From Sphaerochaeta pleomorpha str. Grapes (GTDB lineage Bacteria; Spirochaetota; Spirochaetia; Sphaerochaetales; Sphaerochaetaceae): a stretch of DNA of 64,000 nucleotides. The notes below the pieces were generated by a model. The model ran no database searches. It saw only the letters and a program-made list of their open reading frames with translations, and was not told the DNA's origin. Location: contig NC_016633.1 of NCBI RefSeq assembly GCF_000236685.1, forward strand, positions 62,001-126,000, read 5' to 3'. The translations under genes were made by a program, and so were the position numbers. Below, piece by piece: positions 9,868 through 44,016 of the stretch. Numbering within the stretch: the first letter of the stretch is position 1; each line of letters begins with the position of its first letter.

Positions 9868-9954
9868 CAGTTAGGCTTCCCCCTTCTTAGGTTTGTAGCC
9901 TATCACCGAAACAGGTAAAAATATACTCTTCAATGCAAAAGAGAACCTGAGAGC

Positions 9955-10470: not shown

Positions 10471-10551
10471 ATGCATATCCTTATCGTTTTGCAATTGTTG
10501 TGCAAGTATGCATTACCTTGTAGCGAAATAATTGCCAAAGTATCATTATCC

Positions 10552-10580
10552 TTTCAACTGGGAAGTGGTTGTATTACAAT
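10552..10580 (+). promoter_or_regulatory. Possible promoter of the DOMON gene
   Basis: TACAAT at 10575-10580 lies 17 bases after a weak -35, TTTCAA (10552-10557), and 32 bases before the start codon. The spacing is good, but the -35 match is only partial. Confidence 0.35.
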
Positions 10581-10612
10581 AAGTAAGAACTCTCAACAAA
10601 TGTAAGGAGTCA

Positions 10613-11119
10613 ATGATGAATCAGAAAAAATCTCTATTGTTGGCCTTGTTTGCCTGTGTGTTTGTGTTCAGTGGGTTTTCTGAAACCGTTATTGCAGACA
10701 ATTGGACCCTATCCTGGGAATTCGTGGGAAGTGAAATAGAATTTACCTTGAAAGCCCCAACAACCGGTTGGGTTTCCATCGGATTCAACCCCAGCAGGAT
10801 GATGAAGGATGCTGAATATGTGCTTGCTTACGTGAAAGATGGTGAAACGGTAGTCAGGCAAGATTTCGGAACCGGTATGTTTTCCCATAAAGCCGTTACA
10901 GAATTGGGCTGGAAGCAGAACCTACGTGTGATTTCAGGCAGTGAGGAGGGTGGGAATACAAGCATCGTTTTTACGCTTCCCCTCACCTGGGGAGAAGCGT
11001 ATGGCACAAAATTTGAGAAAGGGAAAACCTATAAGATACTGCTCGCCTATGGCCCTTCAAATGCCGATAACTTTACTTCCAAACATCGGAAAAAGGAATC
11101 AATAACCCTCACGCTGTAA
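10613..11119 (+). CDS. Exported DOMON-domain protein
   Basis: This 168-residue secreted protein has a signal peptide (about 1-28) and a single DOMON domain: WTLSWEFVGSEIEFTLKAPT, GWVSIGFNPSRMMKDAEY and SIVFTLPL. DOMON domains bind haem or sugars. A methionine at about residue 63 or 64 and the histidine in TSKHRKK near residue 160 could be axial haem ligands as in cytochrome-type DOMON proteins (inference). In an anaerobe it may act as a small redox or ligand-binding protein in the periplasm. Two ATGs (10613 and 10616) share the same AAGGAG, and the second has slightly better spacing. It is followed by a hairpin terminator. Confidence 0.8.
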   Translation: MMNQKKSLLLALFACVFVFSGFSETVIADNWTLSWEFVGSEIEFTLKAPTTGWVSIGFNPSRMMKDAEYVLAYVKDGETVVRQDFGTGMFSHKAVTELGWKQNLRVISGSEEGGNTSIVFTLPLTWGEAYGTKFEKGKTYKILLAYGPSNADNFTSKHRKKESITLTL

Positions 11120-11120
11120 A

Positions 11121-11168
11121 CAAGAGACCTGCTTGGGCAAGTATGAGCTACCTCTGACAGGTCTCTTG
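11121..11168. terminator. Long-loop hairpin terminator
   Basis: Perfect 11-base arms (CAAGAGACCTG at 11121-11131 and its complement at 11158-11168) flank a 26-base loop, between the convergent DOMON and LCCL genes. It fits a bidirectional stop, although the loop is large and no T tract follows. Confidence 0.5.
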
Positions 11169-13033: not shown

Positions 13034-15943
13034 ATGCCGAAAGGAATTGCAAACAAACTGTGCATTTGTCTTATATGCACGTTGTGCATGGTTCCTTCGG
13101 TTTGTTTTTCCGCATCTGTTGCATTGTCCTTGGATGAGGCAGCTTTTATTTCAGCACATCCGACAATCCGCATCGGAATAGACCGTGAATTCGTCCCGTT
13201 TGAATTTATTGACAGTAATGGTACCTATTCGGGAATTTCTTCTGAGATTCTTGCATTGATTGCTGCAAACACAGGTTTGTCCTTTACCTATGATTCTGCA
13301 TTGGGTTGGGACGATACGGTTGAAAAAGCAAAGATACAGGAAATCGACCTGCTGCCAGCGGTGGCAATTACCGAGGACCGGAAACAGTATCTGACGTTTA
13401 CAAGTCCCTACATCTCTTTTCAGCAGTCCATTGTCATAAAGAATACAAATACCAGTATCAAAGGTATTGAAGACCTTTTCAATCGTCAGGTCGCTGTGCA
13501 AGTAAATACCTTCTGGGAAGGTTTTCTCAACGACTATCCCCTTATCGGAAAACGACAGTATGAAAACGTTGAGAAAGCACTGCTTGCGGTAAACAGAGGA
13601 GAGGAGGTTGCCTACATAGGCAACGAAACCTCTTCGATTTATTGGGCAAGGAAACTGGGCCTTTCGGAATTGAAATTCATTCCCCTGAAGCAAGAACCTG
13701 AGCAACAATTGAGTTTTGCCGTCCGCAAAGATTGGTCTTTGTTGGCTTCAATAATAGAAAAAGGGGTACAGTCAATATCCGAGCAAGAATTCAATGAAAT
13801 TTTCGACCATTGGATTCTTGTGGAAAAACCTACGGATTATTCCCTTGCCATACGCATTTCCCTATTCGCTGGTGCCTTGATTCTCTTTGTGGCCTTGGTT
13901 TCGGTCTTTTGGATCAGAAAACTGAAACAGGAAATTATCAATAAGGACAATACGCAAAAGGATTTGGAAATCGAAAAGCAGAAAGCCGAGTTTGCAGATA
14001 AAGAAAAATCGCGTCTTATGGCAAGGATTTCCCATGAAATCAGGACTCCCTTGAACGGAATCAATGGGACTACCTATCTATTGGAAAAATCAGAGCTTTC
14101 AATAACCCAGAGGAGATATCTATCCATCATTTCGGGGGCAACCCATACAATGCTTTCCCTTATAAATGATATTCTCGAATACTCGAGGATTGATGAACAT
14201 TGCCTTGCCTTGCAAGAAATTCATTTTCACCTTGATGAGATAATCAGGGAAATTCTATCGTTGGAAGATTGGGCAGCGAAGCAAAAGAAACTGAAGGTTC
14301 ATGTTCGTATCGATGAAGATGTTCCCTTGGTTCTGAGAGGGGATAGCGGAAAGCTTTCACAGATTCTTACCAACCTTATTCACAATGCCATGAAATTTAC
14401 CCTACAGGGAAGCATTGATGTACATGTATCAGTGCAACTTAAAGAGAATGACCACTGTATCATTGTCATTGCGATTCAAGATACCGGTATTGGCATGACA
14501 GCGCAGCAGGTTGAAGGAATATTCCAACCTTTCACCCAAGCCGATGATTCCATTTCCCGTCGATTTGGAGGATCCGGGTTAGGGCTTTCCATTGTGAAAG
14601 GCTTGGTTACCCTCATGCAGGGGACCATCGATGTTTTCTGTGAACTAGGCAAAGGATGCACCTTTACCGTTGCGCTTCCTTTCAAAATTGACCACCAGGA
14701 GGAATCGTCAGGATGCAATGATTGTGCTACTTCTCTCCGTCTCGATTGCAGGCACGCTTTGCTGGTAGTCAAGAACAAGGAATCGGTTGCTGCCGTAGGA
14801 TCCTTGTTGACTTCCTATAAAATTAAATATGATTTGGTCGACTCGGAGCGCTTGGCTATATCCTTGCTTGAAGCCGATTCCTATGAGGCAGTAACTCCCT
14901 ATTGCCTATTGATTATGGATGCCGTTTCTTGGAATACAAGGCCCAGGCAATTGCTCGATTTTTTGGCAGGAAAGAACAAGAACAAGACCAAGCCTACTGT
15001 AAAAACCCTGTTGCTTCTTGAAGATGATAGCAATTTCAACCCCTTGGAGAGTAAGGATAGTGATAATGGCCCTGATTTGGTTTTGTCCTTACCTGTCAAC
15101 AGTTCAGTTTTTTATAACGCAATGCTTGGATTGTTTCTTCCTGAGGATAGTCTTCCTTCCCCCGTTCCTGAACCAGAGATAGTGCGTATCAAAGACACGC
15201 ACTATCGCGTTTTGGTTGTCGAGGATAACAAAATCAACCAGATTATTTGCAACGAGGTTTTAACAAGGAGTGGATTTCAGGTAACCCTTGCCTCCAATGG
15301 AAAAGAAGGGGTGGAGTATTTCAAGCAAATGGGGGATGAAGTCGATCTTATCCTACTCGATTTGCACATGGATGTAATGAATGGATATGAAGCCTTGGCC
15401 ATGATACGGAGTTTGAACAAGAGAATTCCTATTGTAATAACCTCGGCTGACCTCCTTGAAATTGCAAAAACGCGGGCTTTGGGGTTGGGTGCCTCTGAGT
15501 TTCTTGGCAAACCCTACAATCCTGATGAATTGATCCAGATCAGTAGTGAGTTGATAATCAATTATCGGGTTTTCGAGGCAGGTACCAGATGTATCGATAT
15601 TGATGAAGGGTTGCTAAGGGTAGGGGGGGATACTCATCTATACAACCTGGTGATAAGTTCGTTCTTACAAGAATATGAGCAGGAAAGCGTTCTCTTGATG
15701 ACCCAGATTAAGGCCAATCAATATATCCAAGCCTTTGAAACCGTGCATAAAATCAAAGGGGCCTGCGGTTCGATCGGGGCTACCGTGGCTCAGACTCTCG
15801 CCGCACAAGTACAAAGCCTGCTCAATGAGGGATATTCTCAAGAGATGCTGGAAAAGGCAGCATTACTGGAGACTGAATTGCGGGGTGTGCTTTTTGAAGG
15901 TGCCAGGTGGAAAGAACGTTACGAAACTTCGTATAGAAAATAA
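13034..15943 (+). CDS. Hybrid sensor histidine kinase with periplasmic family 3 binding domain, two receivers and HPt
   Basis: The 969-residue multidomain sensor has a signal sequence or first helix (1-27), an SBP_bac_3-type periplasmic ligand domain (about 40-260, starting TIRIGIDREFVPFEF), a transmembrane helix (about 272-293) and a short coiled coil. Next come HisKA with His334 (ISHEIRTPLNG) and an HATPase with the N and G boxes DTGIGM and GGSGLGLS. A degenerate receiver follows at about 575-695, then a canonical receiver with Asp776 (LILLDLHMD) and a C-terminal HPt with His905 (VHKIKGACGS). It senses a small periplasmic solute, perhaps an amino acid. Phosphate could pass from the HPt to the HD-GYP regulator just upstream. 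AAGGAGTCAT precedes the ATG. Confidence 0.93.
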   Translation: MPKGIANKLCICLICTLCMVPSVCFSASVALSLDEAAFISAHPTIRIGIDREFVPFEFIDSNGTYSGISSEILALIAANTGLSFTYDSALGWDDTVEKAKIQEIDLLPAVAITEDRKQYLTFTSPYISFQQSIVIKNTNTSIKGIEDLFNRQVAVQVNTFWEGFLNDYPLIGKRQYENVEKALLAVNRGEEVAYIGNETSSIYWARKLGLSELKFIPLKQEPEQQLSFAVRKDWSLLASIIEKGVQSISEQEFNEIFDHWILVEKPTDYSLAIRISLFAGALILFVALVSVFWIRKLKQEIINKDNTQKDLEIEKQKAEFADKEKSRLMARISHEIRTPLNGINGTTYLLEKSELSITQRRYLSIISGATHTMLSLINDILEYSRIDEHCLALQEIHFHLDEIIREILSLEDWAAKQKKLKVHVRIDEDVPLVLRGDSGKLSQILTNLIHNAMKFTLQGSIDVHVSVQLKENDHCIIVIAIQDTGIGMTAQQVEGIFQPFTQADDSISRRFGGSGLGLSIVKGLVTLMQGTIDVFCELGKGCTFTVALPFKIDHQEESSGCNDCATSLRLDCRHALLVVKNKESVAAVGSLLTSYKIKYDLVDSERLAISLLEADSYEAVTPYCLLIMDAVSWNTRPRQLLDFLAGKNKNKTKPTVKTLLLLEDDSNFNPLESKDSDNGPDLVLSLPVNSSVFYNAMLGLFLPEDSLPSPVPEPEIVRIKDTHYRVLVVEDNKINQIICNEVLTRSGFQVTLASNGKEGVEYFKQMGDEVDLILLDLHMDVMNGYEALAMIRSLNKRIPIVITSADLLEIAKTRALGLGASEFLGKPYNPDELIQISSELIINYRVFEAGTRCIDIDEGLLRVGGDTHLYNLVISSFLQEYEQESVLLMTQIKANQYIQAFETVHKIKGACGSIGATVAQTLAAQVQSLLNEGYSQEMLEKAALLETELRGVLFEGARWKERYETSYRK

Positions 15944-15955
15944 ACAGGGGAAAGC

Positions 15956-17059
15956 ATGGAACTTATAAAAACAGGAAATCCTAGGGTAGAAAAGCTGGTC
16001 CAATATCTTCAAATCCTTTGTACAGGGATCTGTGAAAAAGAGAATTATGATTCCTATAGAGACATTTTGGAAACTGCCACTCCCTTTGAAGTGAACAAAG
16101 CCCTTTCTATCGTTCTTGCAGGGGCTACTTCTTTTTCTGATTACATGCTGCCTGTTTCGAGGTTTTTTCGTTCGGTCGGAAAATCGCTTGACAGCCAAAT
16201 AGTGGCTGCCTATCCCCCGTCGCATATACTTAGCCGACTTTCTGCAGAGAATACTGCTATTGCTGCCTTGTGTTCTGCACTACAAGTCTTATCAAAACAA
16301 GTTCATTTGAAAACCCTTAATAGGGAAGTTTTGGTCAACTTTGTCGCATCCTTTGGCTTGCTCAATTCCCACTATACTGCCTTGCAGAACGAGTTGTTTC
16401 CTTTATTCGAAAAAGCTACCGTTGACCATGCCTGTGTCAAATTGATGTGGAGTATCCAGGACCTGGTACTGGATGCACAGAAAAAAATCATTCAGTTTGA
16501 TACTTCCCTGTCAATGGATGAATTCTGGAAACTGTTCGGAAAGTTTTTTTCCTTGGTAGAGATTCTGGTATATCGTGAAACAAGGGTTTTGTTTCCCGTT
16601 GCCTACCGAGCTATTTCCCAGGAATATGAAAAAGAGAATTCCTTGGTAAAAGGTGTCTCTCTTGCACGTTTTGTCTCGAATACCGGTTCGTTGGCGTTTG
16701 GAGAACTAGAAGCAATTTTTAAATTGCTTCCCCTTGATATCGCCTTCATCACTGCAGATGACAAGGTAGCCTTCTACTCTGATCCTCCACACAGGATTTT
16801 TCCTCGGAGCCCGGCAGTACTAAAAAGGCTGGTGCAAAACTGCCACCCTATGAAAAGTGTTCAAACGGTTGAAGCAATACTATCCTCTTTCAAGGACGGA
16901 AGCAAAGATTCTGCAGAATTCTATCTCACCGTACAGGGGCGTTTTATCCATATTGAATACTTTGCCGTAAAAAACAACCAAGGTACCTATCTTGGTACCT
17001 TGGAAGTAACACAGGATGCCACGCGTCTTCGTGCCCTTGAAGGGGAAAAACGCCTATGA
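15956..17059 (+). CDS. DUF438 protein with hemerythrin-like region and C-terminal PAS domain
   Basis: The 367-residue cytoplasmic protein shows the DUF438 architecture: an N-terminal helical DUF438 segment (about 10-85), a middle hemerythrin-like helical region (about 95-235) and a C-terminal PAS domain (about 245-360, DIAFITADDKVAFYSDPPHRIFP). In the usual family the middle region has HYxRKEN.LFP, MWSxHDEI and similar iron ligands. Here the segments read HYTALQNELFP and MWSIQDLVL, so several ligand histidines are gone. It is third in an operon with an HD-GYP regulator and a hybrid kinase (12-base spacing), so a signalling or redox-sensing role is likely. ATG 15956 has GGGGAA upstream. Confidence 0.8.
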   Translation: MELIKTGNPRVEKLVQYLQILCTGICEKENYDSYRDILETATPFEVNKALSIVLAGATSFSDYMLPVSRFFRSVGKSLDSQIVAAYPPSHILSRLSAENTAIAALCSALQVLSKQVHLKTLNREVLVNFVASFGLLNSHYTALQNELFPLFEKATVDHACVKLMWSIQDLVLDAQKKIIQFDTSLSMDEFWKLFGKFFSLVEILVYRETRVLFPVAYRAISQEYEKENSLVKGVSLARFVSNTGSLAFGELEAIFKLLPLDIAFITADDKVAFYSDPPHRIFPRSPAVLKRLVQNCHPMKSVQTVEAILSSFKDGSKDSAEFYLTVQGRFIHIEYFAVKNNQGTYLGTLEVTQDATRLRALEGEKRL

Positions 17060-24009: not shown

Positions 24010-25083
24010 GTGAATCTTATGCTACAGGCGAAGAGCCCTGAGGCCCTGTATGATACGCCATTGTTGCACCAGAGTTCTTTCTGGTCCCAAGTAAAACAGA
24101 ACCAAGGATTCGCTGCACGGGCCTTTGATATAAAAGTCCGTACAAGCGATGTGCTTCAATTGAGTGGATCTTCCTATTTGCTTGATGATGTGCTGGTCTT
24201 GCTTGCTCCCATCGGAAGGTCTTATTCCATGGGATATGTTCCCTATGGACCGGTACTCAACCCCATCGATTCTTTGATGGGGCCCTTCTTGGAAGAACTC
24301 TCAGAGCAATTACGGGAAAAACTTCCCAAGGATTGTGCCTTGCTCCGGTTTGATCTTCCCTGGCAACGGCCGTGGCAAGCCGATAACTTGGATACTTCCC
24401 TGCAAGAGCTCAGGCTCAATTGGGGTACTGAAAGAAAGGTCCTGCGCAAGGCTTGTTCGGATCAACTTCCTCCTGACACCCTGCTTTTGGATCTGTGCGG
24501 CAGTGAAGAATCCATTCTTTCGCGGATGCATAGAAAGACGCGGTATAATATCCACCTTGCCCAGCGTAAAGGTGTGGTGGTGCGGGAAGGGACCTTTGAA
24601 GACCTTCCGATATTCTACGAACTCTATAAAGAGACTTGTCTGAGGAATGGCTTGAACCTCCATGACCTTTCCTTTTTTTCCTCATTCTTCGGGCCAAAGG
24701 ACATCCATGCGGGGTTTTGCCTGCTATTGGCAGAATGGGAAGGTGTTCCGCTTTCTGCAATGTTCCTTACCCGGTCTTCGAACCGGGCAACCTATCTGTA
24801 TGGGGCTTCTTCTTCAAGGATGAGGAACAGCATGAGTACCTATGCATTGCAGTGGAATGCCATTGTCCTGGCAAAAAAATGGGGATGTACCCAATATGAC
24901 CTGTTTGGTTTAGCCCCCTCTGACGAGCCTTCCCATCCCATGCATGGGCTGAATGCCTTCAAAATGGGTTTTGGCGGTAAACCGTTTCATAGGATGGGTT
25001 GCTGGGACTACGCTTTCGACGAACAGATAAGCAACGAATTGTTTGCCTATGAGATGGTCGAGAAAGGATATCACCTGACTTGA
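24010..25083 (+). CDS. FemAB/MurM-family aminoacyl-tRNA-dependent peptidyltransferase
   Basis: The protein of about 357 residues belongs to the FemABX fold (two GNAT domains) that adds amino acids from aminoacyl-tRNA to peptidoglycan stem peptides. Recognisable blocks are GRSYSMGYVPYGPVL, SILSRMHRKTRYNIHLAQRK, and LYGASSSRMRN followed by YDLFGLAPSDEPSHPMHGLNAFKMGFGG. The start is GTG 24010, seven bases after AGGAGG, rather than the frame opening at 23977. An ATG at 24019 is an alternative. Since this lineage is thought to have an unusual cell wall, the natural acceptor is uncertain. The 3' end overlaps the convergent XdhC-like gene by 13 bases. Confidence 0.85.
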   Translation: MNLMLQAKSPEALYDTPLLHQSSFWSQVKQNQGFAARAFDIKVRTSDVLQLSGSSYLLDDVLVLLAPIGRSYSMGYVPYGPVLNPIDSLMGPFLEELSEQLREKLPKDCALLRFDLPWQRPWQADNLDTSLQELRLNWGTERKVLRKACSDQLPPDTLLLDLCGSEESILSRMHRKTRYNIHLAQRKGVVVREGTFEDLPIFYELYKETCLRNGLNLHDLSFFSSFFGPKDIHAGFCLLLAEWEGVPLSAMFLTRSSNRATYLYGASSSRMRNSMSTYALQWNAIVLAKKWGCTQYDLFGLAPSDEPSHPMHGLNAFKMGFGGKPFHRMGCWDYAFDEQISNELFAYEMVEKGYHLT

Positions 25084-26036
25084 AAAAGTATCTTTGCATC
25101 CCCGCCGCAGATCATACCGAGCGAACCTGCCTTGCTACTATCCAGATTGTAGTGGATTATCTCAGCCCTGCTGGCTTTTGCAGATAGCATCTCTTGGGCA
25201 TGTTCGATGGTCTTTGCCTCTACCATACCTCCACCGACCGTACCTGAGGTGGTCCCATCTGCAAAAATAGCTATCTGGAAACCCACATCACAAGGGGCTG
25301 AACCGGTTTTTTCAATGACCCTTGCCAGGATGTACCCTTTGCTTTGGGAAAGTTTTTCCAAAAGTTTCGGGTCGAGCCGTACAGCTTTTTCTTCCTTGCG
25401 GTATACGCTGATAATCTCAGCCATGATACTGATGGCAATCTCGCTGGCAGTGATTGCACCGATGGAAAGCCCGATAGGGGAGTGCACCGTTGCAAGCAGG
25501 TCCTCGCTGAATCCTTTTTTGCGCAGATTGTCCAAGGTTATCTTGACCTTGTTCTTACTGCCGATCATCCCGATGTAGGAATGGGGGAGGCCAAGTGTTT
25601 GTTCCAGGCATACCTGGTCAAATCCATGGCCTCGGGTAACCAGTACATAATAGGGCTTTACCCAGGTCTGTTTTTCAGTGAGGGTTTTCAAAAAAGGAGC
25701 ACAGTGTAAATCAGCTTTGGGATAAAGCTCTTTGTTACAGAATTCTTCCCGCTCATCAAGTATGGACACTTCCATGTCCATCAGGACAGCTAAGGCATAG
25801 AGTTCTTTGGCAACGTGGCCGCCGCCACAGAGAACCAAATGCACCTTTGCCCCCAAAGTCTCGCTAAGTACCTCCCCAGTATCAAACGAGTGGGGAGTCT
25901 GCTGGTAGGTTGCGATTTGTGCATTTCCCCTATAGAGGGCTTCATCCCCAATATACGGACCGGAAACAATGGTCTTTCGTACTATATTGCCTGTTTGCAA
26001 CGCTTTCAGCATCGTATTGTAATAGTTTTCCATCAT
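25071..26036 (-). CDS. XdhC/CoxI family molybdenum hydroxylase accessory protein (permuted domain order)
   Basis: The 321-residue protein relates to XdhC, which inserts or sulfurates the molybdenum cofactor of xanthine dehydrogenase-type enzymes. The usual order is an XdhC_CoxI domain followed by a Rossmann domain. Here the Rossmann part comes first (LVLCGGGHVAKELYALAV, LVTRGHG and IGMIGSKNK), and the CoxI part (VIEKTGSAPCDVGFQIAIF, SGTVGGGMVEA) lies at the C-terminus. Its ATG overlaps the stop of the NifS-like gene in an ATGA junction, so the two are co-expressed. Together with YedE, YedF, DUF3343 and SelD it forms the maturation set for selenium-dependent hydroxylases. Confidence 0.85.
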   Translation of the reverse strand: MMENYYNTMLKALQTGNIVRKTIVSGPYIGDEALYRGNAQIATYQQTPHSFDTGEVLSETLGAKVHLVLCGGGHVAKELYALAVLMDMEVSILDEREEFCNKELYPKADLHCAPFLKTLTEKQTWVKPYYVLVTRGHGFDQVCLEQTLGLPHSYIGMIGSKNKVKITLDNLRKKGFSEDLLATVHSPIGLSIGAITASEIAISIMAEIISVYRKEEKAVRLDPKLLEKLSQSKGYILARVIEKTGSAPCDVGFQIAIFADGTTSGTVGGGMVEAKTIEHAQEMLSAKASRAEIIHYNLDSSKAGSLGMICGGDAKILFQVR

Positions 26037-27187
26037 TTGTTCCTTTTCAATTCTTTCAAGACCTGTGCCAAAGAGGCAAGGGTAACATCGATTTCGCTAT
26101 CGGTTGTGAAATACCCCGGGCTGAACCGTATGGTTCCCTTGGGGAACGTTCCTAGTGTCCTGTGGGCACTCGGGGCACATTGCAATCCTACCCGAGTCTC
26201 TATGCCTGCCAATTCTTGTAACCGAAATGCAATGAAAGCATTGTCGAAGGTAGGGAAATCGATGCTGATTGCACTCGTTCTTCCTTCAAGGGAAGCAAGT
26301 CCCTTCAACTCTATCAGATTGTTTGACAAAAAGAAATCGAGCAAAGCCGCACTGGCTTTCTGTTCTTGCCTGATGAGCCGGTCATGGTTTTCCTGCAGGT
26401 ACGAAAGGCTGGTATGGAGACCTATGATACCTGGGAGGTTGAGCGTTCCCGCCTCCAGTCTGTCAGGAAGCAGGGGGGGGATATCCTCGCTGTCGCTGAA
26501 ACTTCCGGTTCCCCCGCTGATCAAGGGGTCAATTGCCCTTCCCAGTTCGGGTGAGAGCAAAAGGCCCCCGATTCCCTGGGGCCCGAGCAATCCCTTGTGC
26601 CCGGTGAACGCTACTGCGTCTATACCCATATGGTCCATATGAATGGGGAAGACAGGACTTCCCTGGGCAGTGTCGACAATACACAGGATTCCCAGTTCCT
26701 TGCAAAGTGAGGCTACCTGCTCGATGGGCATTACAGTCCCCGAGACATTGGAGGCCAGGGTGATGATGATTGCCTTCGTATTTTTCTGCAGTAAAGGACG
26801 AATCGCATCAAAGTGAAGGCGACCTTGCTTGTCACAGGGAATCTTGGAAAAAGGAATTTTACTTTGCACGAGCGGGCGCATGACAGCATTGTGTTCCATG
26901 GAACTTATCAGTATATGGTCTTCTGCAGTAAACAGGCCTTTGATGAGCATGTTCAATGACTGGGTGACATTCATGGTAAAAACGGTGCATTCAGGATGGG
27001 AGAACCCAAAGAGAGTACAGAGTTGTTGTCTGGTTTCCTGGACAACCATGGCGGTGTCATAGGCACTTTCATATCCTCCTCGAGCGATATTGCTTCCGCA
27101 ATTGGTGAGGAAGTTGGCCATTTTTTGGGCAACTGCAGGTGCTTTTGGCCAGGAGGTCGAGGCGTTGTCAAGATAGATTCTTTGCAT
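26033..27187 (-). CDS. Cysteine desulfurase-like class V aminotransferase (EF2568 type)
   Basis: The 384-residue PLP enzyme is related to NifS/IscS. The PLP lysine is in VAFTGHKGLLGPQGIGG (about residue 202). The N-terminus YLDNASTSWPKAP and the catalytic-loop cysteine in RVGLQCAPSAHRTLGTFP are those of the subfamily found beside SelD and YqeB genes. It probably releases selenium or sulfur from (seleno)cysteine for the labile selenium cofactor of molybdenum hydroxylases (inference from the family and neighbours). It is first in a two-gene minus-strand unit with the permuted XdhC, divergent from the yedE-selD operon. An extended -10 (TGCTAAAAT) sits near 27228-27236 on the minus strand. Confidence 0.88.
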   Translation of the reverse strand: MQRIYLDNASTSWPKAPAVAQKMANFLTNCGSNIARGGYESAYDTAMVVQETRQQLCTLFGFSHPECTVFTMNVTQSLNMLIKGLFTAEDHILISSMEHNAVMRPLVQSKIPFSKIPCDKQGRLHFDAIRPLLQKNTKAIIITLASNVSGTVMPIEQVASLCKELGILCIVDTAQGSPVFPIHMDHMGIDAVAFTGHKGLLGPQGIGGLLLSPELGRAIDPLISGGTGSFSDSEDIPPLLPDRLEAGTLNLPGIIGLHTSLSYLQENHDRLIRQEQKASAALLDFFLSNNLIELKGLASLEGRTSAISIDFPTFDNAFIAFRLQELAGIETRVGLQCAPSAHRTLGTFPKGTIRFSPGYFTTDSEIDVTLASLAQVLKELKRNK

Positions 27188-27287
27188 AGGCTACAGAATA
27201 CCACCAAAAATTAAAAATTTCCATTGCATTTTAGCATAAATAATGGTTAAATTGTTGCAGAATGTTTCATAAATTGAAGGGGTGTTT

Positions 27288-28352
27288 ATGGCTGTGTCGA
27301 AAGAAAAACGAAATCTAATAATTGCAGGAACGACGATTGGGGTTATTTCTGCAGTTCTTGTCTTGTTGGGAAATCCAAAAAACATGGGGTTTTGCATTGC
27401 CTGTTTTATCCGGGATACCGCAGGGGCTCTGTCTTTGCATTCTGCATCTGTAGTGCAATATGCAAGGCCAGAGGTTATGGGACTGTTGCTTGGATCCATG
27501 TTCCTTAGCCTGGTAAAGGGTGAGTTCAAACCCAGGGGTGGTTCTTCTCCCTTCATTCGGTTTGTCATCTCATTTTTTGTCATGATCGGGGCTCTGGTAT
27601 TTCTGGGTTGTCCTTTTAGAATGTTGCTTCGTCTCAGTGGCGGTGATCTCAATGCCTTGGTTGGTTTATTCGGGTTTGCCGGGGGTATTGTTATAGGTTC
27701 GATTCTGCTGAACAAGGGATTTTCCTTGGGGAGAAGCTATAAACAGAGTAAAGCTGAAGGATCTGCCATAGGGTTTGTCACGCTTGCTCTTTTGGGAATC
27801 CTGCTTTTTATTCCCTCCTTGTTGAAATTCAGCGAGAAAGGTCCTGGAAGTCTGCATGCACCCATTCTTTTCGCCCTTATCGGAGGTTTGGCTGTAGGCA
27901 TGTTAGCCCAGAGAAACCGTTTCTGCATGGCCGGGGGGATTCGGGATATTTTCTTGTTCAAAGACAGTACCCTGGCAATGGGTTCCCTGTTCGTATTTCT
28001 GTCAGCTTTGGTATTCAACCTTTTTACGGGTGATTTTCACCTTTCCTTTGCAAACCAGCCGGTTGCCCATACCGATTGGCTTTGGAATTTCTTAGGCATG
28101 GCCTTGGTTGGGTTAGGTTCGGTTTTGATCGGGGGTTGTCCGCTGAGACAGACCATTCTCGCCGGTGAGGGTAGCAGTGACAGTGCCATGAGTGTACTTG
28201 GTATGCTCGTAGGTGCAGCCTTTGCCCATAACTTTGGTCTTGCCTCTTCGGCAGCTGGAGCTACCACAAATGGCAAAATTGCTGTTTTTGTCGGGTTTGC
28301 TGTCATTTTTCTGATCTCTGCATCTGTCATGCGCAAAGCTAAAACTAATTAG
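27288..28352 (+). CDS. yedE: YedE-type selenium/sulfur transporter
   Basis: The 354-residue polytopic membrane protein (about 10 helices) has two half-repeats. Cysteine signatures are GFCIACFIRDTAG, FLGCPFRMLLRLSGGDLNAL, RNRFCMAGGIRD and IGGCPLRQTILAGEGSSD. These match the YedE/YeeE subset linked to selenium metabolism, which is thought to import a selenium compound such as selenite. ATG 27288 (AAGGGG five bases upstream) is preferred to the GTG at 27282. It starts an operon with yedF, DUF3343 and selD. Confidence 0.9.
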   Translation: MAVSKEKRNLIIAGTTIGVISAVLVLLGNPKNMGFCIACFIRDTAGALSLHSASVVQYARPEVMGLLLGSMFLSLVKGEFKPRGGSSPFIRFVISFFVMIGALVFLGCPFRMLLRLSGGDLNALVGLFGFAGGIVIGSILLNKGFSLGRSYKQSKAEGSAIGFVTLALLGILLFIPSLLKFSEKGPGSLHAPILFALIGGLAVGMLAQRNRFCMAGGIRDIFLFKDSTLAMGSLFVFLSALVFNLFTGDFHLSFANQPVAHTDWLWNFLGMALVGLGSVLIGGCPLRQTILAGEGSSDSAMSVLGMLVGAAFAHNFGLASSAAGATTNGKIAVFVGFAVIFLISASVMRKAKTN

Positions 28353-28362
28353 GAGTGATTAT

Positions 28363-28572
28363 ATGTTGGAAATTGATGCAAGAGGACTCTCCTGTCCCCA
28401 GCCGGTAATAGAAACAAAAAAGGTCTTGGACAGGAAAATCGAAAAAGTTACTGTCTTGGTAGATAATCAGGCAGCGTATGAAAATGTGACAAGGTATGCG
28501 AAAGCTGCAAAGTACGAGGTTGCAGCTGAGAAGGATGGCGATAGCTGGTCCTTGGTGCTGACGAAGGCCTAA
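28363..28572 (+). CDS. yedF: TusA/YedF-like sulfur (selenium) relay protein
   Basis: This is a 69-residue SirA/TusA-fold protein. The catalytic cysteine lies in the family motif DARGLSCPQPVIETKK (Cys11). It carries sulfur, or probably selenium here, as a persulfide or selenopersulfide between the NifS-like enzyme and SelD or a cofactor-assembly step (inference from the operon). It sits between yedE and DUF3343 with short gaps. The ATG follows a GGAG seven bases upstream. Confidence 0.92.
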   Translation: MLEIDARGLSCPQPVIETKKVLDRKIEKVTVLVDNQAAYENVTRYAKAAKYEVAAEKDGDSWSLVLTKA

Positions 28573-28814
28573 TGTTATTTATTGCTACTTTCTTTACCCA
28601 TTTCGGTGCTATTAAGTTCAGGGAATTTGCTAAAAAGCAGAACCTTGAATGTATACTGATGCCTGTTCCCAGGGTTTTGTCTTCCTCCTGCGGCACTTGT
28701 GCCCGCTACAAGGCAGAACACTGGGATATAGGCTTTTCTGATGAGGCCTTGGAAGGTGTTTTCTCCCTTGATAAGGGAGATGGTTACGAGCAACTTTTCA
28801 AGGCAAAGGAATGA
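28572..28814 (+). CDS. DUF3343 selenium-cluster protein
   Basis: The 80-residue product carries the DUF3343 signature MPVPRVLSSSCGTCARYKAE (about 30-49), with two conserved cysteines likely to bind or relay chalcogen. DUF3343 genes recur beside selD and yedF in genomes with selenium-dependent hydroxylases. The mechanism is unknown. Its ATG overlaps the yedF stop by one base, and its own stop overlaps the selD start region. Confidence 0.88.
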   Translation: MLFIATFFTHFGAIKFREFAKKQNLECILMPVPRVLSSSCGTCARYKAEHWDIGFSDEALEGVFSLDKGDGYEQLFKAKE

Positions 28815-29830
28815 ACATGGTAAAACTTACTTCATTGGTAAAAACCTCAGGGTGTGCGGCAAAGCTTCCCCCCGCCCAATTGCATGAGGTATTGGGAAGC
28901 CTTCCCTTGGTCCATGACGAACATCTCGTCGGTGGTTTCGAAAACAGTGATGATGCTTTGGTCTATCGTTTGGACAATGGGACCTTGGTCATTCAGACTG
29001 TCGATTTCTTTCCTCCCATGGTAGATGACCCTTATACATTCGGGCAGGTGGCAGCGGCAAATGCGCTCAGCGACATCTATGCAATGGGGAGTGAACCGAA
29101 GATTGCCATGAACCTGATGTGCTTTCCCTCTTGCCTGGAGCTTGAGGTAATGCATCAGATTCTGCTGGGGGGCCTCGATAAGGCAAATGAGGCCGGAGCC
29201 GTGATTGCAGGCGGCCACACCATTAGCGACCCTACCCCTAAGTATGGCCTCTGTGTTACCGGCTTTGCCAAAGAAGGGGAAGTCTGGGCCAACAAAGGCG
29301 CACAGGAAGGGGACCTTCTGGTGTTAACCAAAAGCCTTGGGGTCGGGATAATCAACACTGCAGTAAAGGCTTCCATGGCAAGCGAAGAGGCAGCCAGTGC
29401 GGCTATCAAGAGTATGGTTACCCTCAACAAATATGCCAGGGACGAAGCACTTGGCTATACAGTCCATGCTGCTACCGATATTACCGGGTTTTCCTTGCTT
29501 GGACATAGCCAGGAAATGGCTGTGGCAAGTGATGTACAGCTGGTGATTGAAAGCGAGAAGGTACCAATTCTTCCCTTTGTTGAGGAATACTCAATCCAGG
29601 GCTTGAATCCTGGAGGGTTGTACAATAACCGGGACTATATCGGGGGAAGTGTAGATATGGTAGCTTCTATCAGGCAGAGCCTGCAGGATGTGCTGTATGA
29701 TCCACAGACTTCCGGCGGGTTGTTGTTTAGCATGCCTGGCAAAGATGCCAAAGCCTATAGCGAGAAAACAGGCTTTCCCATCATAGGGTATGTCAAGGCA
29801 AAAGGTGAAAAACCTATACTCGTAGTGTAG
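28811..29830 (+). CDS. selD: Selenide, water dikinase (selenophosphate synthetase)
   Basis: The 339-residue enzyme makes selenophosphate from selenide and ATP. The active-site segment reads TSGCAAKLPP, with cysteine (Cys15 of the long start) where some homologues have selenocysteine, followed by the conserved lysine. The other blocks, VQTVDFFPPMVDDPY, GGHTISDPTPKYGLCVTG, ATDITGFSLLGHSQEM and DPQTSGGLLFS, are all intact. Two starts share the AAGG/AAAGGA region. ATG 28817 has better spacing, while 28811 overlaps the DUF3343 stop. Selenophosphate may feed the labile selenium cofactor, selenocysteine or selenouridine. This context favours the cofactor. Confidence 0.95.
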   Translation: MNMVKLTSLVKTSGCAAKLPPAQLHEVLGSLPLVHDEHLVGGFENSDDALVYRLDNGTLVIQTVDFFPPMVDDPYTFGQVAAANALSDIYAMGSEPKIAMNLMCFPSCLELEVMHQILLGGLDKANEAGAVIAGGHTISDPTPKYGLCVTGFAKEGEVWANKGAQEGDLLVLTKSLGVGIINTAVKASMASEEAASAAIKSMVTLNKYARDEALGYTVHAATDITGFSLLGHSQEMAVASDVQLVIESEKVPILPFVEEYSIQGLNPGGLYNNRDYIGGSVDMVASIRQSLQDVLYDPQTSGGLLFSMPGKDAKAYSEKTGFPIIGYVKAKGEKPILVV

Positions 29831-34336: not shown

Positions 34337-35152
34337 ATGTATATAGTCGTCCCTATCAAGCAGGTTCCCGAGACAAGCAATGTCCAGATGGATAAAGAGA
34401 CAGGCACTATGATCCGTTCGGCAAGTGAGGCCATTGTCAATCCGCTGGACCTCTATGCCTTGGAGACTGCCTTGCAAATCAAAGAGCGCACCGGTGGCAG
34501 GATTACCGTTATTACCATGGGTCCTCTCGGTGCCGCGAAAGTGCTCAAAGAAGCCATAGCCATGGGTTGCGATGATGCCATCCATCTATCGGACAGGGCC
34601 TTCGGTGGTTCCGATACCTGGGCCACTTCCTATACCCTGGCATCGGCTATCAGAAAACTGGGTAAGGTTGACCTAGTCATCGCAGGGGAACGGGCCACCG
34701 ATGGGGATACCGGCCAAGTAGGTCCCGGCCTTGCTTCCTGGCTCGATATGGGCCTGGTTACCTATACCTCCCACATCGAGGAACTTACCGATACCTATCT
34801 CATAGCGGAGCGATTGCTTGAGGAAGGCTACCAGAAAGTAAAAGCAACGCTTCCTGTGGTTCTTACCGTAGTAAAGGAGATAGCAATTCCTAGGTTGCCA
34901 ACGCTTAAAGGGAAAAAACGTGCGATGCACATGACTATCCCCCTTTTGGGGGCAAAGGACCTTGGCCTCGAGAATGCTGACCTTGGTCTGTTGGGTTCAC
35001 CTACCAGGGTAGTCAAGATAGAAAGTCCGAAGATCAGCCGTGCGTGCACAGTAGTAAAAGCTACCGATGACAGTTCTATACAGGAAGGGATAGACAAATT
35101 GATGCTGTTTCTCGCAAGCAAGGAACTGCTGGGCAAGGGAGTTGCAAAATGA
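34337..35152 (+). CDS. etfB: Electron transfer flavoprotein beta subunit
   Basis: The 271-residue EtfB has a nucleotide-binding region with VIAGERATDGDTGQVGP (about 114-130), the flavin/AMP loop found in bifurcating-type Etf, and NPLDLYALETALQIKE near residue 35. It pairs with EtfA, encoded next (ATGA overlap). With the FAD dehydrogenase that follows, it should carry electrons from a 2-hydroxyacid. GAGGAGAG precedes the ATG. This loop suggests AMP replaced by a second FAD, but sequence alone cannot prove it. Confidence 0.93.
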   Translation: MYIVVPIKQVPETSNVQMDKETGTMIRSASEAIVNPLDLYALETALQIKERTGGRITVITMGPLGAAKVLKEAIAMGCDDAIHLSDRAFGGSDTWATSYTLASAIRKLGKVDLVIAGERATDGDTGQVGPGLASWLDMGLVTYTSHIEELTDTYLIAERLLEEGYQKVKATLPVVLTVVKEIAIPRLPTLKGKKRAMHMTIPLLGAKDLGLENADLGLLGSPTRVVKIESPKISRACTVVKATDDSSIQEGIDKLMLFLASKELLGKGVAK

Positions 35153-36147
35153 ATGAAATATGGACGCTTAGCGAACAACATGGGGGAAAACTCAAGGACG
35201 TCTCCTTTGAACTGCTTGCACGGGGCAGAGCCCTCGCCGATACGCTTCAAAGCCAGCTCTGTACTGTAGTTTTGGGAAACAAAATCGATGATAAAGAGCT
35301 TGAATCGTTGATTTTCCATGGTGCCGATACTGTGTTTTATGTTGAAAACCCCTGCCTTGGCGATATGGTCTGTGAAATCTATGCAATGGTACTTGCCTAT
35401 CTGGTTGGTGAATATACTCCCCATGTGCTGTTAGCAGCCGCTACGACCACAGGGCGCAGTGTTTTGCCCTATCTTGCGGTAAAGATCCATACAGGGCTTA
35501 CCGCAGACTGCACCGACCTTGCCATCGAGAAAGAGACGGGAAACCTTCTGCAGACCAGGCCGGCAATCGGGGGGAATATCATGGCTACGATAAAAACCCC
35601 GAACCACAGGCCCCAGATGGCGACAGTGAGACCTAAATCCTACAAGGCCCTTGCTGAAGATAGATCGAGAAGTGGAAAGGTGGTAAGGGTTGCATGGAAT
35701 CCTGAATGGAATGACACAAGGGTCCAGGTTCTCTCGTATCGCGAGGAGTGTGGGAATTCCAGTTCCCTGGAAGAGGCCGATATCGTAGTTTCCGGTGGCA
35801 AGGGCCTGAAAAAGCGGGAGAACTTCCGCTTGATCGAAGAGCTTGCAGATAGTCTGGGAGGCCAAGTGGGAGCCTCGCGTGATGCTGTCGACCGTGGTTG
35901 GGCCAGCTACCCTCATCAGGTAGGCCTATCGGGAAAGACCATATCACCGAAACTCTACCTGGCTGTAGGGATTTCCGGGGCTGTCCAGCACCTGGCAGGT
36001 ATCAAGACTGCAGAATATATCGTGGCAATCAATAGCGATGAACATGCCAATATCCTACAGGTTGCCGACTTTGCCCTTGTCGGTGATCTGTTCGCGATTT
36101 TACCTCAATTATTGAGGCGTCTGGGCACGCAAGGCGGGGAGAAATGA
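35149..36147 (+). CDS. etfA: Electron transfer flavoprotein alpha subunit
   Basis: The 332-residue EtfA has an N-terminal domain and a C-terminal FAD domain with GGQVGASRDAVDRGW, VGLSGKTISPKLYLAVGISG and AVQHLAGIKTAEYIVAINSD. The LctC-type alpha subunits of electron-confurcating lactate dehydrogenases usually carry an N-terminal ferredoxin domain. It is absent here, and the protein begins MNEIWTLSEQHGG. The gene overlaps etfB and the following FAD-dehydrogenase gene by ATGA, so it is tightly co-translated. Confidence 0.93.
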   Translation: MNEIWTLSEQHGGKLKDVSFELLARGRALADTLQSQLCTVVLGNKIDDKELESLIFHGADTVFYVENPCLGDMVCEIYAMVLAYLVGEYTPHVLLAAATTTGRSVLPYLAVKIHTGLTADCTDLAIEKETGNLLQTRPAIGGNIMATIKTPNHRPQMATVRPKSYKALAEDRSRSGKVVRVAWNPEWNDTRVQVLSYREECGNSSSLEEADIVVSGGKGLKKRENFRLIEELADSLGGQVGASRDAVDRGWASYPHQVGLSGKTISPKLYLAVGISGAVQHLAGIKTAEYIVAINSDEHANILQVADFALVGDLFAILPQLLRRLGTQGGEK

Positions 36148-37565
36148 ATACCTATACAAAAGTAACACCAGAAATTGTCTCAGAACTTTCTACAATTGTG
36201 GGAAACAATAACCTTATCAGCGATTTCGACCGTATGGAGAACTATGGGCATGATGAGACTTCAAAGGAAGAATATGGCCACATGCCTGAGGTGGTAGTCA
36301 TGCCACAGTCTTGCGAGCAGGTAGCACAGGTCATGAGACTTGCCACCAGATACCATATTCCCGTAACTCCCAGGGGAGCCGGTTCAGGGCTGAGCGGGGG
36401 AGCAATCCCTCTTTTCGGGGGAATCGTACTTTCGGTTGAAAAAATGAACAAGGTTTTGGAAATCGATGAGAAAAACCTTACCGTAACTGCCGAGGCAGGG
36501 ATTATCACCAACGAGCTGAACAACCAAGTCATAGAGCATAAACTCTTTTTTGCCGGGTACCCGATGAGTCTTGAGACATGTTTCCTCGGTGGGAATATTG
36601 CTGAGAATGCAGGCGGAGGAAGAGCAGTAAAATACGGGGTGACCGGAAGATATGTCCTGGGTCTTGAAATCGTTACCCCTGATGGCCGCATCGTGAACCT
36701 TGGGGGAAAAGTGACCAAGGATGTCAGCGGCTATGATTTGAAACAGCTGTATATCGGTTCGGAAGGAACTTTGGGTATCATCACCAAGGCTACCATAAAG
36801 CTGCTCGGTCTTCCCACGGCAAAAGCCGACCTTCTAGTACCGTTCAAGACAGCGGAGGAAGCCATTGCGGTTGTCTCTGTCATTATGACCAAGGGCATTG
36901 TCCCGACAAGCATAGAGTTCATGGACAGGACTTCCTTGCAGATGTCCTGCAATTATCTCAACGAAACCCTTCCTCTTGAAAAAGTGGGTGCCATGCTGCT
37001 CATCGAGCTTGATGGCTCAGAGGAAAAACAGGTTGAGGCGGATATGATTAGCGTGGGAGACTTGTGCGAGGCGAATGGAGCTATGGAGGTCTATATTGCC
37101 GAGGACAAAAACACTCAGGAACGAATCTGGTCTGTGCGAAGGAACATTGCCGAAGCATTGAAGGTCTATAGCCCGGTGCAGAGTCTGGAGGATATTGTAG
37201 TCCCTATCGGCTCTATTCCCCTGGTTCTTCCCAAACTGACCATGCTTTCAGAGAAGTATGGGGTGACCATTCCCTGTTATGGCCATGCCGGGGATGGAAA
37301 TCTCCATGCCACTATTGTAAAGAACCCAGAGAGCACTATGGAACACTGGCATGAAATAGAGCCTATGATTCTGCGTGAGCTCTATGCCTTCATTGTCACT
37401 GAACTCGGGGGAAAGATCAGCGGGGAGCATGGCATCGGTATAAAACGGAGGGAATTCTTGCGTGAGGTTATCTCCGATACCGAATACGACTTGTTCTGTG
37501 CGTTGAAGAAGGCCTTTGACCCGCAGATGATTATGAATCCGGGAAAGATCATTCGGATACAGTAA
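36144..37565 (+). CDS. FAD-linked 2-hydroxyacid dehydrogenase, GlcD/LctD type
   Basis: The 473-residue enzyme is of the FAD-binding type 4 / vanillyl-alcohol oxidase fold. The FAD domain has VTPRGAGSGLSGGAIP and TCFLGGNIAENAGGG. The C-terminal catalytic part has YGHAGDGNLHATIV, then GEHGIGIKRREFL and QMIMNPGKI. These are typical of D-lactate, glycolate and related dehydrogenases. With etfB and etfA upstream it matches the lct-type layout, so lactate oxidation coupled to NAD through Etf is likely (inference). The natural substrate is not fixed by sequence. No lactate permease or racemase gene follows. Next is a convergent ablB gene. Confidence 0.9.
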   Translation: MNTYTKVTPEIVSELSTIVGNNNLISDFDRMENYGHDETSKEEYGHMPEVVVMPQSCEQVAQVMRLATRYHIPVTPRGAGSGLSGGAIPLFGGIVLSVEKMNKVLEIDEKNLTVTAEAGIITNELNNQVIEHKLFFAGYPMSLETCFLGGNIAENAGGGRAVKYGVTGRYVLGLEIVTPDGRIVNLGGKVTKDVSGYDLKQLYIGSEGTLGIITKATIKLLGLPTAKADLLVPFKTAEEAIAVVSVIMTKGIVPTSIEFMDRTSLQMSCNYLNETLPLEKVGAMLLIELDGSEEKQVEADMISVGDLCEANGAMEVYIAEDKNTQERIWSVRRNIAEALKVYSPVQSLEDIVVPIGSIPLVLPKLTMLSEKYGVTIPCYGHAGDGNLHATIVKNPESTMEHWHEIEPMILRELYAFIVTELGGKISGEHGIGIKRREFLREVISDTEYDLFCALKKAFDPQMIMNPGKIIRIQ

Positions 37566-41497: not shown

Positions 41498-43303
41498 TCA
41501 TAGACTATTTCTAAAATGATCCAAAGCCTCGAGTACACCGCCTGCAATGGCCTTTGCCTTGTCGCTGGCAGTAGTAAACTGTGCTTCTTTTCCCCTTGGG
41601 TCGATGTCGGCTACCTTGAAGCCCTTGGTTACCAAAAGCCCATTGTTGAGCAGTCCCCTAAGCATACCGTCGATGGTTGCCAAAACTGGCTGGTCATCTA
41701 CTGTTGCGATGCAGTCCCCTGCCTTGACAATATCACCGAGTTTTTTGTCTGAGTAAAAGATTCCTTCGCCTGGGCTGCGCAGGACCCGTTCAGCACCGTA
41801 CCCGCCGATAATGCCGGGAATCCCACTGTCCGGGATAGCACATCCTTCTTTGATAATCCTTCCAAGGGTATGGCCCCGTTTGGTTTCGATGACAATATGG
41901 CAATCTGACCCTGCAGTGAAACCAGGGCCAAGGCCAATGACCAAGGGGGCATCGGTGATGTTGGTGCCCAGATTCCGCTTAGCCAGAATTGCATCGACGA
42001 CACACAGCGGTTTCAGTTTTGCAATAGACTCACCCTTCGGGTCACAGAGAATTGGGATCTTGCCTTCCTTGAGAATTGCATAGACATTTGCCAGGTTGTC
42101 ACAGCGTTCGGCAGTCGTATCCTCTACCGTGGTTGTTTTGTCAAACATAGCCTGGGCAAGGCTTACCGTGCACCTGATAACCGTAGGCTTATCGGTTTCC
42201 AGGGCAATGACCTGGTACCCTGCATTTGACAACCTGATAATGACCCCGGTCGCAAGGTCCCCGGCTCCCCTGACAATGACCAGGTTTCTGTTCTGGTACT
42301 TTAAGCTGTTCCCCGTTGTTTTGTTTTTCACTTTCATGATTTCGGCTAGGACACTCACCGCTATTTCTTCAGGACTCTGGGACCCGATATCGAGCCCAAT
42401 GGGACTGAAGAGACGACGTTCGTCGCTTGGTGTCAGCTTCAGTTGCTCCTTTAAGGCCCTTTCCTTATTGTGGGAGGCAAGGATTCCCAGATACGGGGCA
42501 TCGGTCGAGAACAGATAGGAAGCTTCTTCAAATCCGAAGGCATGGGCAGCAATTACGATATAGGTATACGGCGTGACGGTGACCTTATCCAATCCTTCTT
42601 TGATAGTAGGGGCCAAGACCAATCTTCTTGCTTTCGGGAACAAGGACCTTTGGGCAAATTCATCCCTGGTTTCCAAGACCTGGATCTCGAAACCCAACAT
42701 ATCAGCCAAGTTGGCTATTGCCTGGTTTACATGTCCCCCCCCGATGAGCAGAAGGGAGGCACAGGTTTGGGGAATATCCACAAAGTAGGTATATTTGTCT
42801 TCTTCGATACATATGCCTTTGTTCCTGCTAAGGGCTTCTATTGTCTTTTGTGCAAGCAAAGGGGAGGGATTGCCATATACAAAACCTTCGGGAGTTGCAA
42901 GGAAACGTTTTTTTATATCACCGGTAAGGGTCGTAACATAAGCAAAGGGAGAATGAAAATGCTCAAGGTCAGTGGCTAGCAGAAAAAGTTGATCATCCTC
43001 TCCAGGTTGTATCTGCTCTATATAGAGTTGCACAGAACCCGCCTGTCTGTTAGCCACCTGCTCGATGGAAAAGGAGCCCAGATAGGTTTTTTCCTTGCTT
43101 TTTTGCAGCAAGACAGCCTGTTCAACAGCAAAAGCCTCCAAGGCCCCGCCGCCGATGGTACCGCTACATTGCTTATCTTCCCAGACAAGCATCCTGCCGT
43201 TTTCCCGGGAGGCCGATCCTTCTTTTTTAATGAGTGTGACCAAGGAAAACTTAGTTCCTTTCTGTATCAATTCATATGCCTTGGAAAATATCATTGAGCT
43301 CAT
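41498..43303 (-). CDS. yqeB: XdhC-YqeB fusion, selenium-dependent molybdenum hydroxylase maturation protein
   Basis: The 601-residue fusion has an N-terminal XdhC part (about 1-335) with the CoxI block KEGSASRENGRMLVWED and CSGTIGGGALEAFA, then the Rossmann block LLLIGGGHVNQAIANLADML. The C-terminal YqeB/EF2563 domain (about 340-600) starts LVIVRGAGDLATGVIIRL and contains ALETDKPTVIRCTVSLAQA, ILCDPKGES and GLGPGFTAGSDC. YqeB marks genomes with selenium-dependent molybdenum hydroxylases. Here XdhC and YqeB are one polypeptide, in contrast to the separate permuted XdhC at 25071. The ATG overlaps the yqeC stop (ATGA) and has AGGAAGGA upstream. Confidence 0.92.
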   Translation of the reverse strand: MSSMIFSKAYELIQKGTKFSLVTLIKKEGSASRENGRMLVWEDKQCSGTIGGGALEAFAVEQAVLLQKSKEKTYLGSFSIEQVANRQAGSVQLYIEQIQPGEDDQLFLLATDLEHFHSPFAYVTTLTGDIKKRFLATPEGFVYGNPSPLLAQKTIEALSRNKGICIEEDKYTYFVDIPQTCASLLLIGGGHVNQAIANLADMLGFEIQVLETRDEFAQRSLFPKARRLVLAPTIKEGLDKVTVTPYTYIVIAAHAFGFEEASYLFSTDAPYLGILASHNKERALKEQLKLTPSDERRLFSPIGLDIGSQSPEEIAVSVLAEIMKVKNKTTGNSLKYQNRNLVIVRGAGDLATGVIIRLSNAGYQVIALETDKPTVIRCTVSLAQAMFDKTTTVEDTTAERCDNLANVYAILKEGKIPILCDPKGESIAKLKPLCVVDAILAKRNLGTNITDAPLVIGLGPGFTAGSDCHIVIETKRGHTLGRIIKEGCAIPDSGIPGIIGGYGAERVLRSPGEGIFYSDKKLGDIVKAGDCIATVDDQPVLATIDGMLRGLLNNGLLVTKGFKVADIDPRGKEAQFTTASDKAKAIAGGVLEALDHFRNSL

Positions 43304-44016
43304 AAATCCTTCCTGTAATAGAGTATGTTTTGCTTTAGCGAACCGAAAAACAGGGGGTAGGGGAGAGAAACCGAATCAGACAATTCCCTGCAGGCGTCAA
43401 TTTGGTTTGAGGTGACTTGGTTGAAAAGAACCACTCCCTTTCCCGTCATTCTTTTTGTTATTCCTTCCTTATGCAGAAGCAGTTTTTTCAATGTCTCGAT
43501 ATCGACCAATTGTTCGGGAAAATCCTGTGCATAGAGCTCCGAACCAAAACAATTTTCTGCAAACGGTTTTTTCAGGGTTGCAAAGGATGCTATGGCAATC
43601 GTTGCCGTCACAAAAGAAGGCACGACAGGATCGCCTTGGTTATGGAGTTTCAAGCCCAGGTGCCTCGAGCCGTCTGCTTCCAGAATAATGACATCATAGA
43701 GGGAGCGCAGGCGGTCTATCTCCTCAATAGGGGGAGTCAGGGCTTTTTCTCCCTTTCTTGCATAGAATACCCGTTCGCCTTCTTTGGGCATATGGGAAAA
43801 GACGGAAGAGTCAAAGAAATAGGAATCACATCCATATTCTACATCTGAGGGAAGCATAAGCTTTGTCGTAGTGGAAAGAAGCACCCGCTTTTTCTGTTTG
43901 CTATACAATGAGGCAAGCTTGATCATGCAAGTGGTTTTCCCACCGCCTCCGGTTATGGCAATACAGGATTCATATCCGTTAAGGGTTTTCAGGATTTCGG
44001 CATATAACTCGTGCAT
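43300..44016 (-). CDS. yqeC: Selenium-dependent hydroxylase accessory protein YqeC
   Basis: The 238-residue P-loop protein has ITGGGGKTTCMIKLASLY (Walker A near residue 24), KRVLLSTTTKLMLP and VIILEADGSRHLGLKLH (Walker B-like with Asp), the hallmarks of YqeC. It is encoded directly before the XdhC-YqeB fusion and completes the known accessory pair. Its molecular role is not established. By analogy with other P-loop maturases it may be a metallochaperone or nucleotide-dependent insertion factor. The ATG has little Shine-Dalgarno sequence. Confidence 0.92.
   Translation of the reverse strand: MHELYAEILKTLNGYESCIAITGGGGKTTCMIKLASLYSKQKKRVLLSTTTKLMLPSDVEYGCDSYFFDSSVFSHMPKEGERVFYARKGEKALTPPIEEIDRLRSLYDVIILEADGSRHLGLKLHNQGDPVVPSFVTATIAIASFATLKKPFAENCFGSELYAQDFPEQLVDIETLKKLLLHKEGITKRMTGKGVVLFNQVTSNQIDACRELSDSVSLPYPLFFGSLKQNILYYRKDL

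Follow-up and report, generated by a model that had tools for sequence, protein, structure and literature searches.

A predicted selenium-cofactor locus with a circularly permuted XdhC in Sphaerochaeta pleomorpha, and relatives that keep its maturation genes without selD

We identified six genes, arranged in two divergent arms on opposite strands, at positions 25071-29830 of a 64,000-nucleotide stretch of the Sphaerochaeta pleomorpha str. Grapes genome (hereafter the window; Table 1). All six are open frames at the coordinates given in a sequence-only reading of the window, and curated models back their family assignments. The ATGA overlaps described in that reading for both arms are present at the nifS/xdhC and DUF3343/selD junctions, and the yedF-like and DUF3343 genes meet at TAATG. 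Two further genera of the family (L080, L082) have the identical divergent gene order, and the genes of the cluster were found again in Spirochaetales MAGs (L087, L088, L096). Given this recurrence, the clustering is far beyond chance.

Table 1. Features of the two gene groups, in window coordinates.
Feature	Coordinates	Strand	Description	Model
xdhC	25071..26036	-	predicted circularly permuted XdhC-family maturation factor	XdhC_C + XdhC_CoxI (Pfam)
nifS	26033..27187	-	NifS/SclA-like PLP lyase, EF2568 type	TIGR01977
nifS/yedE divergent intergenic region	27188..27281	.	94 bp	
yedE	27282..28352	+	putative selenium transporter	TIGR04112
yedF-like	28363..28572	+	TusA-domain carrier, YedF N-terminal half only, 69 aa	
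DUF3343 gene	28572..28814	+	putative Se/S carrier	PF11823
selD	28811..29830	+	selenide water dikinase, Cys form, orphan	TIGR00476
xdhC-yqeB fusion	41498..43303	-	601 aa, XdhC then YqeB	TIGR03309
yqeC	43300..44016	-	ATGA overlap with xdhC-yqeB	TIGR03172

The names proposed earlier hold for XdhC, the NifS-like lyase, YedE, DUF3343 and SelD, but not for YedF. SelD scored 367 bits with TIGR00476 (cut-off 125) and carries a GCAAK motif. YedE scored 481.7 bits with the seleno-YedE model TIGR04112 (cut-off 200); its true start is probably the ATG at 27288, with an AAGGGG ribosome site. The DUF3343 protein matched PF11823 (Se_S_carrier) at 42.5 bits, above the gathering cut-off of 25, and contains an SSSCGTC motif. 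The NifS-like lyase, with a cysteine within the RVGLQCAPSAHR motif, passed only TIGR01977 (381 bits, cut-off 377), as its 337 bits with the SclA model NF040779 fall below the cut-off of 525. The best model for the small TusA protein was that of YedF, TIGR03527, at 64.5 bits under a cut-off of 110, a shortfall explained by the lack of the C-terminal half. A YedF has a SirA/TusA domain followed by a DsrE-like domain; the protein found here, and likewise in relatives, is a TusA-domain relative.

The XdhC of the cluster is predicted, from its sequence and from a structural model, to be circularly permuted, with the Rossmann domain placed before the CoxI domain. Both Pfam domains score above their cut-offs, XdhC_C at residues 67-208 and XdhC_CoxI at 231-296. 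Canonical XdhC proteins of solved structure (2we7/2we8, the M. smegmatis Rv0376c homologue, and 3on5 from B. halodurans) share the two domains and the CGG motif, here MICGG, but have the CoxI domain first. A phmmer search against solved structures matched 2we7 and 3on5 in swapped order, with residues 239-316 falling on 26-101 of the 2we7 chain and residues 83-210 on 223-356. In an AlphaFold2 model (pLDDT 88, pTM 0.82), residues 1-214 aligned to 109-360 of 2we8 (VIA-align, Z 21.7, rmsd 5.5, 213 aligned), and the C-terminal 107 residues, outside this alignment, match by sequence the N-terminal part of the known structure. The full-length NCBIfam model NF045664 gave 252.5 bits in two stretches, under its cut-off of 350. 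The permuted order is shared by 16 family members aligned end to end. Cys143 and Cys310 are invariant in this family, and position 143 is occupied by cysteine in 33 of 36 permuted proteins versus 3 of 27 canonical ones. We found no paper that mentions XdhC and circular permutation together in the literature that could be searched.

The permuted form accounted for 36 of the 80 XdhC loci retrieved and occurs in Spirochaetales, Clostridia and a few others, in genera including Blautia, Flavonifractor, Faecalibacterium and Acetobacterium. YqeB was present in 28 of the 35 permuted-XdhC genomes tested, a frequency that cannot fairly be set against the canonical one, as the canonical set used for the genome-level YqeB/SelD test mostly omitted loci flanked by YqeB. 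The other 7 genomes have no YqeB, and SelD is missing from several. Either YqeB or SelD flanks 13/36 permuted loci, no larger a share than the 16/44 among the other XdhC loci retrieved. These counts rule out the permuted XdhC as a strict selenium-specific marker.

The window also contains yqeC and an xdhC-yqeB fusion, which the sequence-only reading overlooked. The YqeB half of the fusion matched TIGR03309 at 367 bits (cut-off 220) and YqeC matched TIGR03172 at 116 bits (cut-off 73). A whole-genome search for YqeB returned this single match. The pair has been published as the signature of the selenium-cofactor trait (PMC2276186, PMC2432076, PMC5029168). The genes yqeC, xdhC-yqeB and permuted xdhC co-occur in 15 relatives, several of which add selD or nifS to the block. 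As yqeC and xdhC-yqeB neighbor the permuted xdhC in these relatives, we regard the window as holding two halves of one system, ~12 kb apart.

We searched the genome (one contig, 3.59 Mb, listed as 100% complete) for candidate target enzymes. The earlier reading had placed the structural hydroxylase outside the window and would have been refuted by a genome devoid of molybdenum hydroxylases. Ten MoCoBD_1 proteins are encoded, none of them within the window. For two of them the equivalog model of selenium-dependent xanthine dehydrogenase, TIGR03311, gave 1337 and 1332 bits (cut-off 830); their genes lie at ~973.8 kb and 1516.0 kb, and a gene for a MocA-like cytidylyltransferase adjoins one of the two. 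A third, of the XdhD type (TIGR03313, 1241 bits, cut-off 1102), is encoded at ~3440 kb beside genes for YgfK, SsnA, YgeY, an 8-oxoguanine-deaminase-like protein and YgeW, and this ygfK-ssnA-ygeY-xdhD-ygeW purine cluster is like the purine/selenium region of E. coli. These hydroxylases are putative carriers of labile selenium; for spirochaete enzymes, we found no labile-selenium measurement.

Further features were seen among the hydroxylase genes of this genome. Two different large subunits flank a MocA-like gene (L018:5753-8380 and 9016-11127), and the 703-aa protein there is xanthine-dehydrogenase-like, below every NCBIfam cut-off. A divergent large subunit of 664 aa is encoded at ~2.27 Mb (L024:8280-10274), with 42 bits to MoCoBD_1 and no NCBIfam match at 1e-20. 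In a 793-aa protein (L023:5929-8310), a GltD/YgfK-like NAD(P)-binding flavoprotein, apparently an inserted electron-transfer domain, separates the halves of a hydroxylase FAD subunit.

The complete genome was also searched for other uses of selenium. SelA, the selenouridine synthase SelU and tRNA-Sec (Rfam model) were not found, and SelB gave no match above its cut-off, which answers the proposal of the sequence-only reading that selA, selB and tRNA-Sec be looked for. Of the tRNA-Sec candidates of 30-45 bits, the eight checked proved to be other tRNAs, the top ones matching Ser, Leu, Tyr and Gly, and the SelB matches under the cut-off look, from their scores and lengths, like other translation GTPases. 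For selenoneine, the one family searched was TIGR04348, which we take to be linked to SenB, and its weak matches were well under the cut-off. With SelA, SelB, tRNA-Sec and SelU all negative, SelD is left without another known customer. It thus qualifies as what Haft & Self call an orphan, predicted to serve the selenium cofactor only, and this cofactor would be the organism's only detectable use of selenium.

Given the analyses presented above, we propose that the genes at 25071-29830 and 41498-44016 encode the selenium-cofactor (SDMH) trait and supply xanthine-dehydrogenase-type hydroxylases, a reading to which we assign a probability of about 0.9. By profile scores the genome has the genetic elements expected of this trait, namely SelD, YqeB with YqeC, and a selenium-dependent-type hydroxylase gene. 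Gene identity, target enzymes, conserved synteny and the lack of rival selenium pathways are its basis in sequence, and the accessory set for selenium-dependent molybdenum hydroxylases recognized earlier is borne out by YqeB and YqeC in the window and the TIGR03311 enzymes beyond it. The same gene set has been predicted for the trait before (PMC2276186, PMC2432076, PMC5322559). Genetics from C. difficile links it to purines, as selD and yqeB mutants fail with uric acid, and their growth with xanthine is poor (PMC11448449), and EF2570 is a selenium-dependent XDH (PMC11448449). Previous work proposed YedE as a candidate transporter of selenium and considered DUF3343 and YedF as possible carriers or redox partners (PMC5322559).

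From such genetics and from family knowledge we infer the transport, carriage and insertion chemistry, which would involve a supply module (25071-29830) and a maturation module, made up of the genes at 41498-44016 and the permuted XdhC. YedE is probably the membrane transporter of a selenium compound, for import or export. Selenocysteine or a persulfide-like carrier may be the substrate from which the NifS-like lyase frees selenium, which may then travel to SelD on the TusA and DUF3343 proteins, and SelD would make selenophosphate. YqeC, XdhC-YqeB and XdhC are then predicted to hold the molybdenum cofactor and swap its terminal ligand, so that the molybdenum carries selenium, and the finished cofactor would pass to the TIGR03311 and XdhD-type hydroxylases, which would oxidize purines.

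The cluster represents a system already described by Haft & Self (2008) and Zhang et al. (2008). The closely comparable EF2563-EF2571 region of Enterococcus faecalis (PMC2276186, PMC2432076) also has an orphan selD, YqeB, YqeC, a TIGR01977 lyase, a SirA/TusA-type protein, XdhC and a selenium-dependent-type xanthine dehydrogenase, and neither organism has a Sec or SeU pathway. In S. pleomorpha, however, the enzyme genes lie at a distance from selD and the locus also encodes YedE and DUF3343; its TusA protein has no second YedF domain, one of its XdhC proteins appears permuted and another is fused to YqeB. The order of this fusion is that of the archaeal Haloarcula marismortui plasmid pNG7241, where selD, unlike here, is close by (PMC2276186). 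Lin et al. 2015 (PMC5322559) described YedE, YedF and DUF3343 beside SelD and a Sec lyase, as here, but their YedF has both SirA and DsrE domains, and Slackia heliotrinireducens, the case they work through, has SelA and SelB as well.

Across the genus, selD was detected in 16 of 26 genomes and selA in 4. Four selD-less genomes that are 96-98% complete (G012, G017, G019 and G025) and two drafts (G010 and G014) keep yqeC, xdhC-yqeB and the permuted xdhC. In the selD-positive genome G001, a DUF3343-yedF-yedE/nifS-selD cassette occupies 4.15 kb between conserved flanks (L163:4250-8402), and it is present at the same left flank in G003. The flanks recur in G019 and G012 (blastn identity ~87-94%), where ~67 bp join them and the cassette is absent. 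In the selD-less genomes other than G019, yqeB encodes 600 aa with dN/dS of 0.04-0.08, compared with ~0.04-0.06 for the neighboring FemAB gene. Between distinct selD-less lineages, dN/dS is ~0.07-0.12 for the permuted xdhC and ~0.12-0.16 for yqeC. Compared with that of its near-twin G025, the yqeB of G019 contains one inserted base, which is either real or due to misassembly. The placement of G001 is nested, though weakly supported, within the selD-less group, and given this nesting a clean ancestral deletion of the cassette is not provable; repeated loss, or regain by recombination, may account for the distribution of selD.

As these relatives keep the maturation module, at least that half of the system may also work without selenophosphate. 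Since the cassette is missing from a fixed site and the maturation genes are under purifying selection, we speculate that YqeB and YqeC are chalcogen-insertion factors in a general system, which would insert sulfur or selenium according to supply, with the SelD cassette as an optional selenium upgrade. The gene content of the complete or near-complete G019 and G012, the exchange of 4.15 kb for ~67 bp, a constraint on yqeB like that on FemAB, and the occurrence of permuted XdhC in genomes without YqeB or SelD all favor this explanation. We nevertheless hold it to be tentative, as selD and yqeB mutants of C. difficile have a common phenotype (PMC11448449), TIGR03309 has been reported in selD-positive genomes only (PMC2276186), and the G019 yqeB carries its insertion. 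Furthermore, the nesting of G001 means that selD losses may be recent or repeated, with the constraint inherited from selD-positive ancestors. That YqeC, XdhC-YqeB and permuted XdhC operate without selenophosphate, YqeB and YqeC loading sulfur or selenium from another donor, is similarly possible but doubtful.

Two further explanations would dispense with the hydroxylases as targets. The cluster could serve selenium detoxification or export, with YedE as an exporter, as has been suggested (PMC5322559), and YgfK/XdhD as a selenate reductase, in keeping with the old name of YgfK, 'putative selenate reductase subunit'. We consider this very unlikely, as SelD uses up selenide to yield an activated donor, the genome encodes YqeB/YqeC as well as two TIGR03311 enzymes, and C. 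difficile genetics connects SelD and YqeB to purine use (PMC11448449). Selenocysteine or selenouridine synthesis is the role of selD in most genomes, and four genus members carry selA, which also favors this reading; a merely coincidental hydroxylase link is still highly improbable in a complete genome that has no SelA, SelU, tRNA-Sec or SelB above the cut-off. The selenium-cofactor reading stands as our preferred one.

The permuted XdhC and the selD-less relatives that keep the maturation genes seem unreported in the literature that could be searched, and are modest additions to a known system. How selenium reaches the molybdenum cofactor has been called the least understood of the selenium routes, and in 2024 it was still open whether selenophosphate is the source (PMC11448449). 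A genus with the supply cassette in some species, cleanly absent in others, and the maturation genes kept provides a natural comparison. The selD-less relatives with YqeB and YqeC also weaken the rule that this pair marks selenium use.

Other arrangements of the selenium genes were seen in the genus. In the two-contig genome G012, tRNA-Sec, selA and a SelB-like gene of 597 aa are neighbors (L168:7351-10583) and selD was not found; either this is a Sec operon that lacks a selenophosphate synthetase, or the assembly has a gap. In G005, yedE-yedF-DUF3343-selD is doubled ~9 kb apart (L165:5238-7762 and 14458-16592), with the second yedE truncated. One selD copy of G016 is split into two frames beside xdhC, and an intact second copy lies in another cassette (L063:7156-8323, L172:7416-8444). 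The S. pleomorpha window itself also encodes an EtfB-EtfA-GlcD trio (34337-37565) with acryloyl-CoA-reductase-like Etf matches, which resembles an electron-bifurcating lactate/glycolate dehydrogenase complex.
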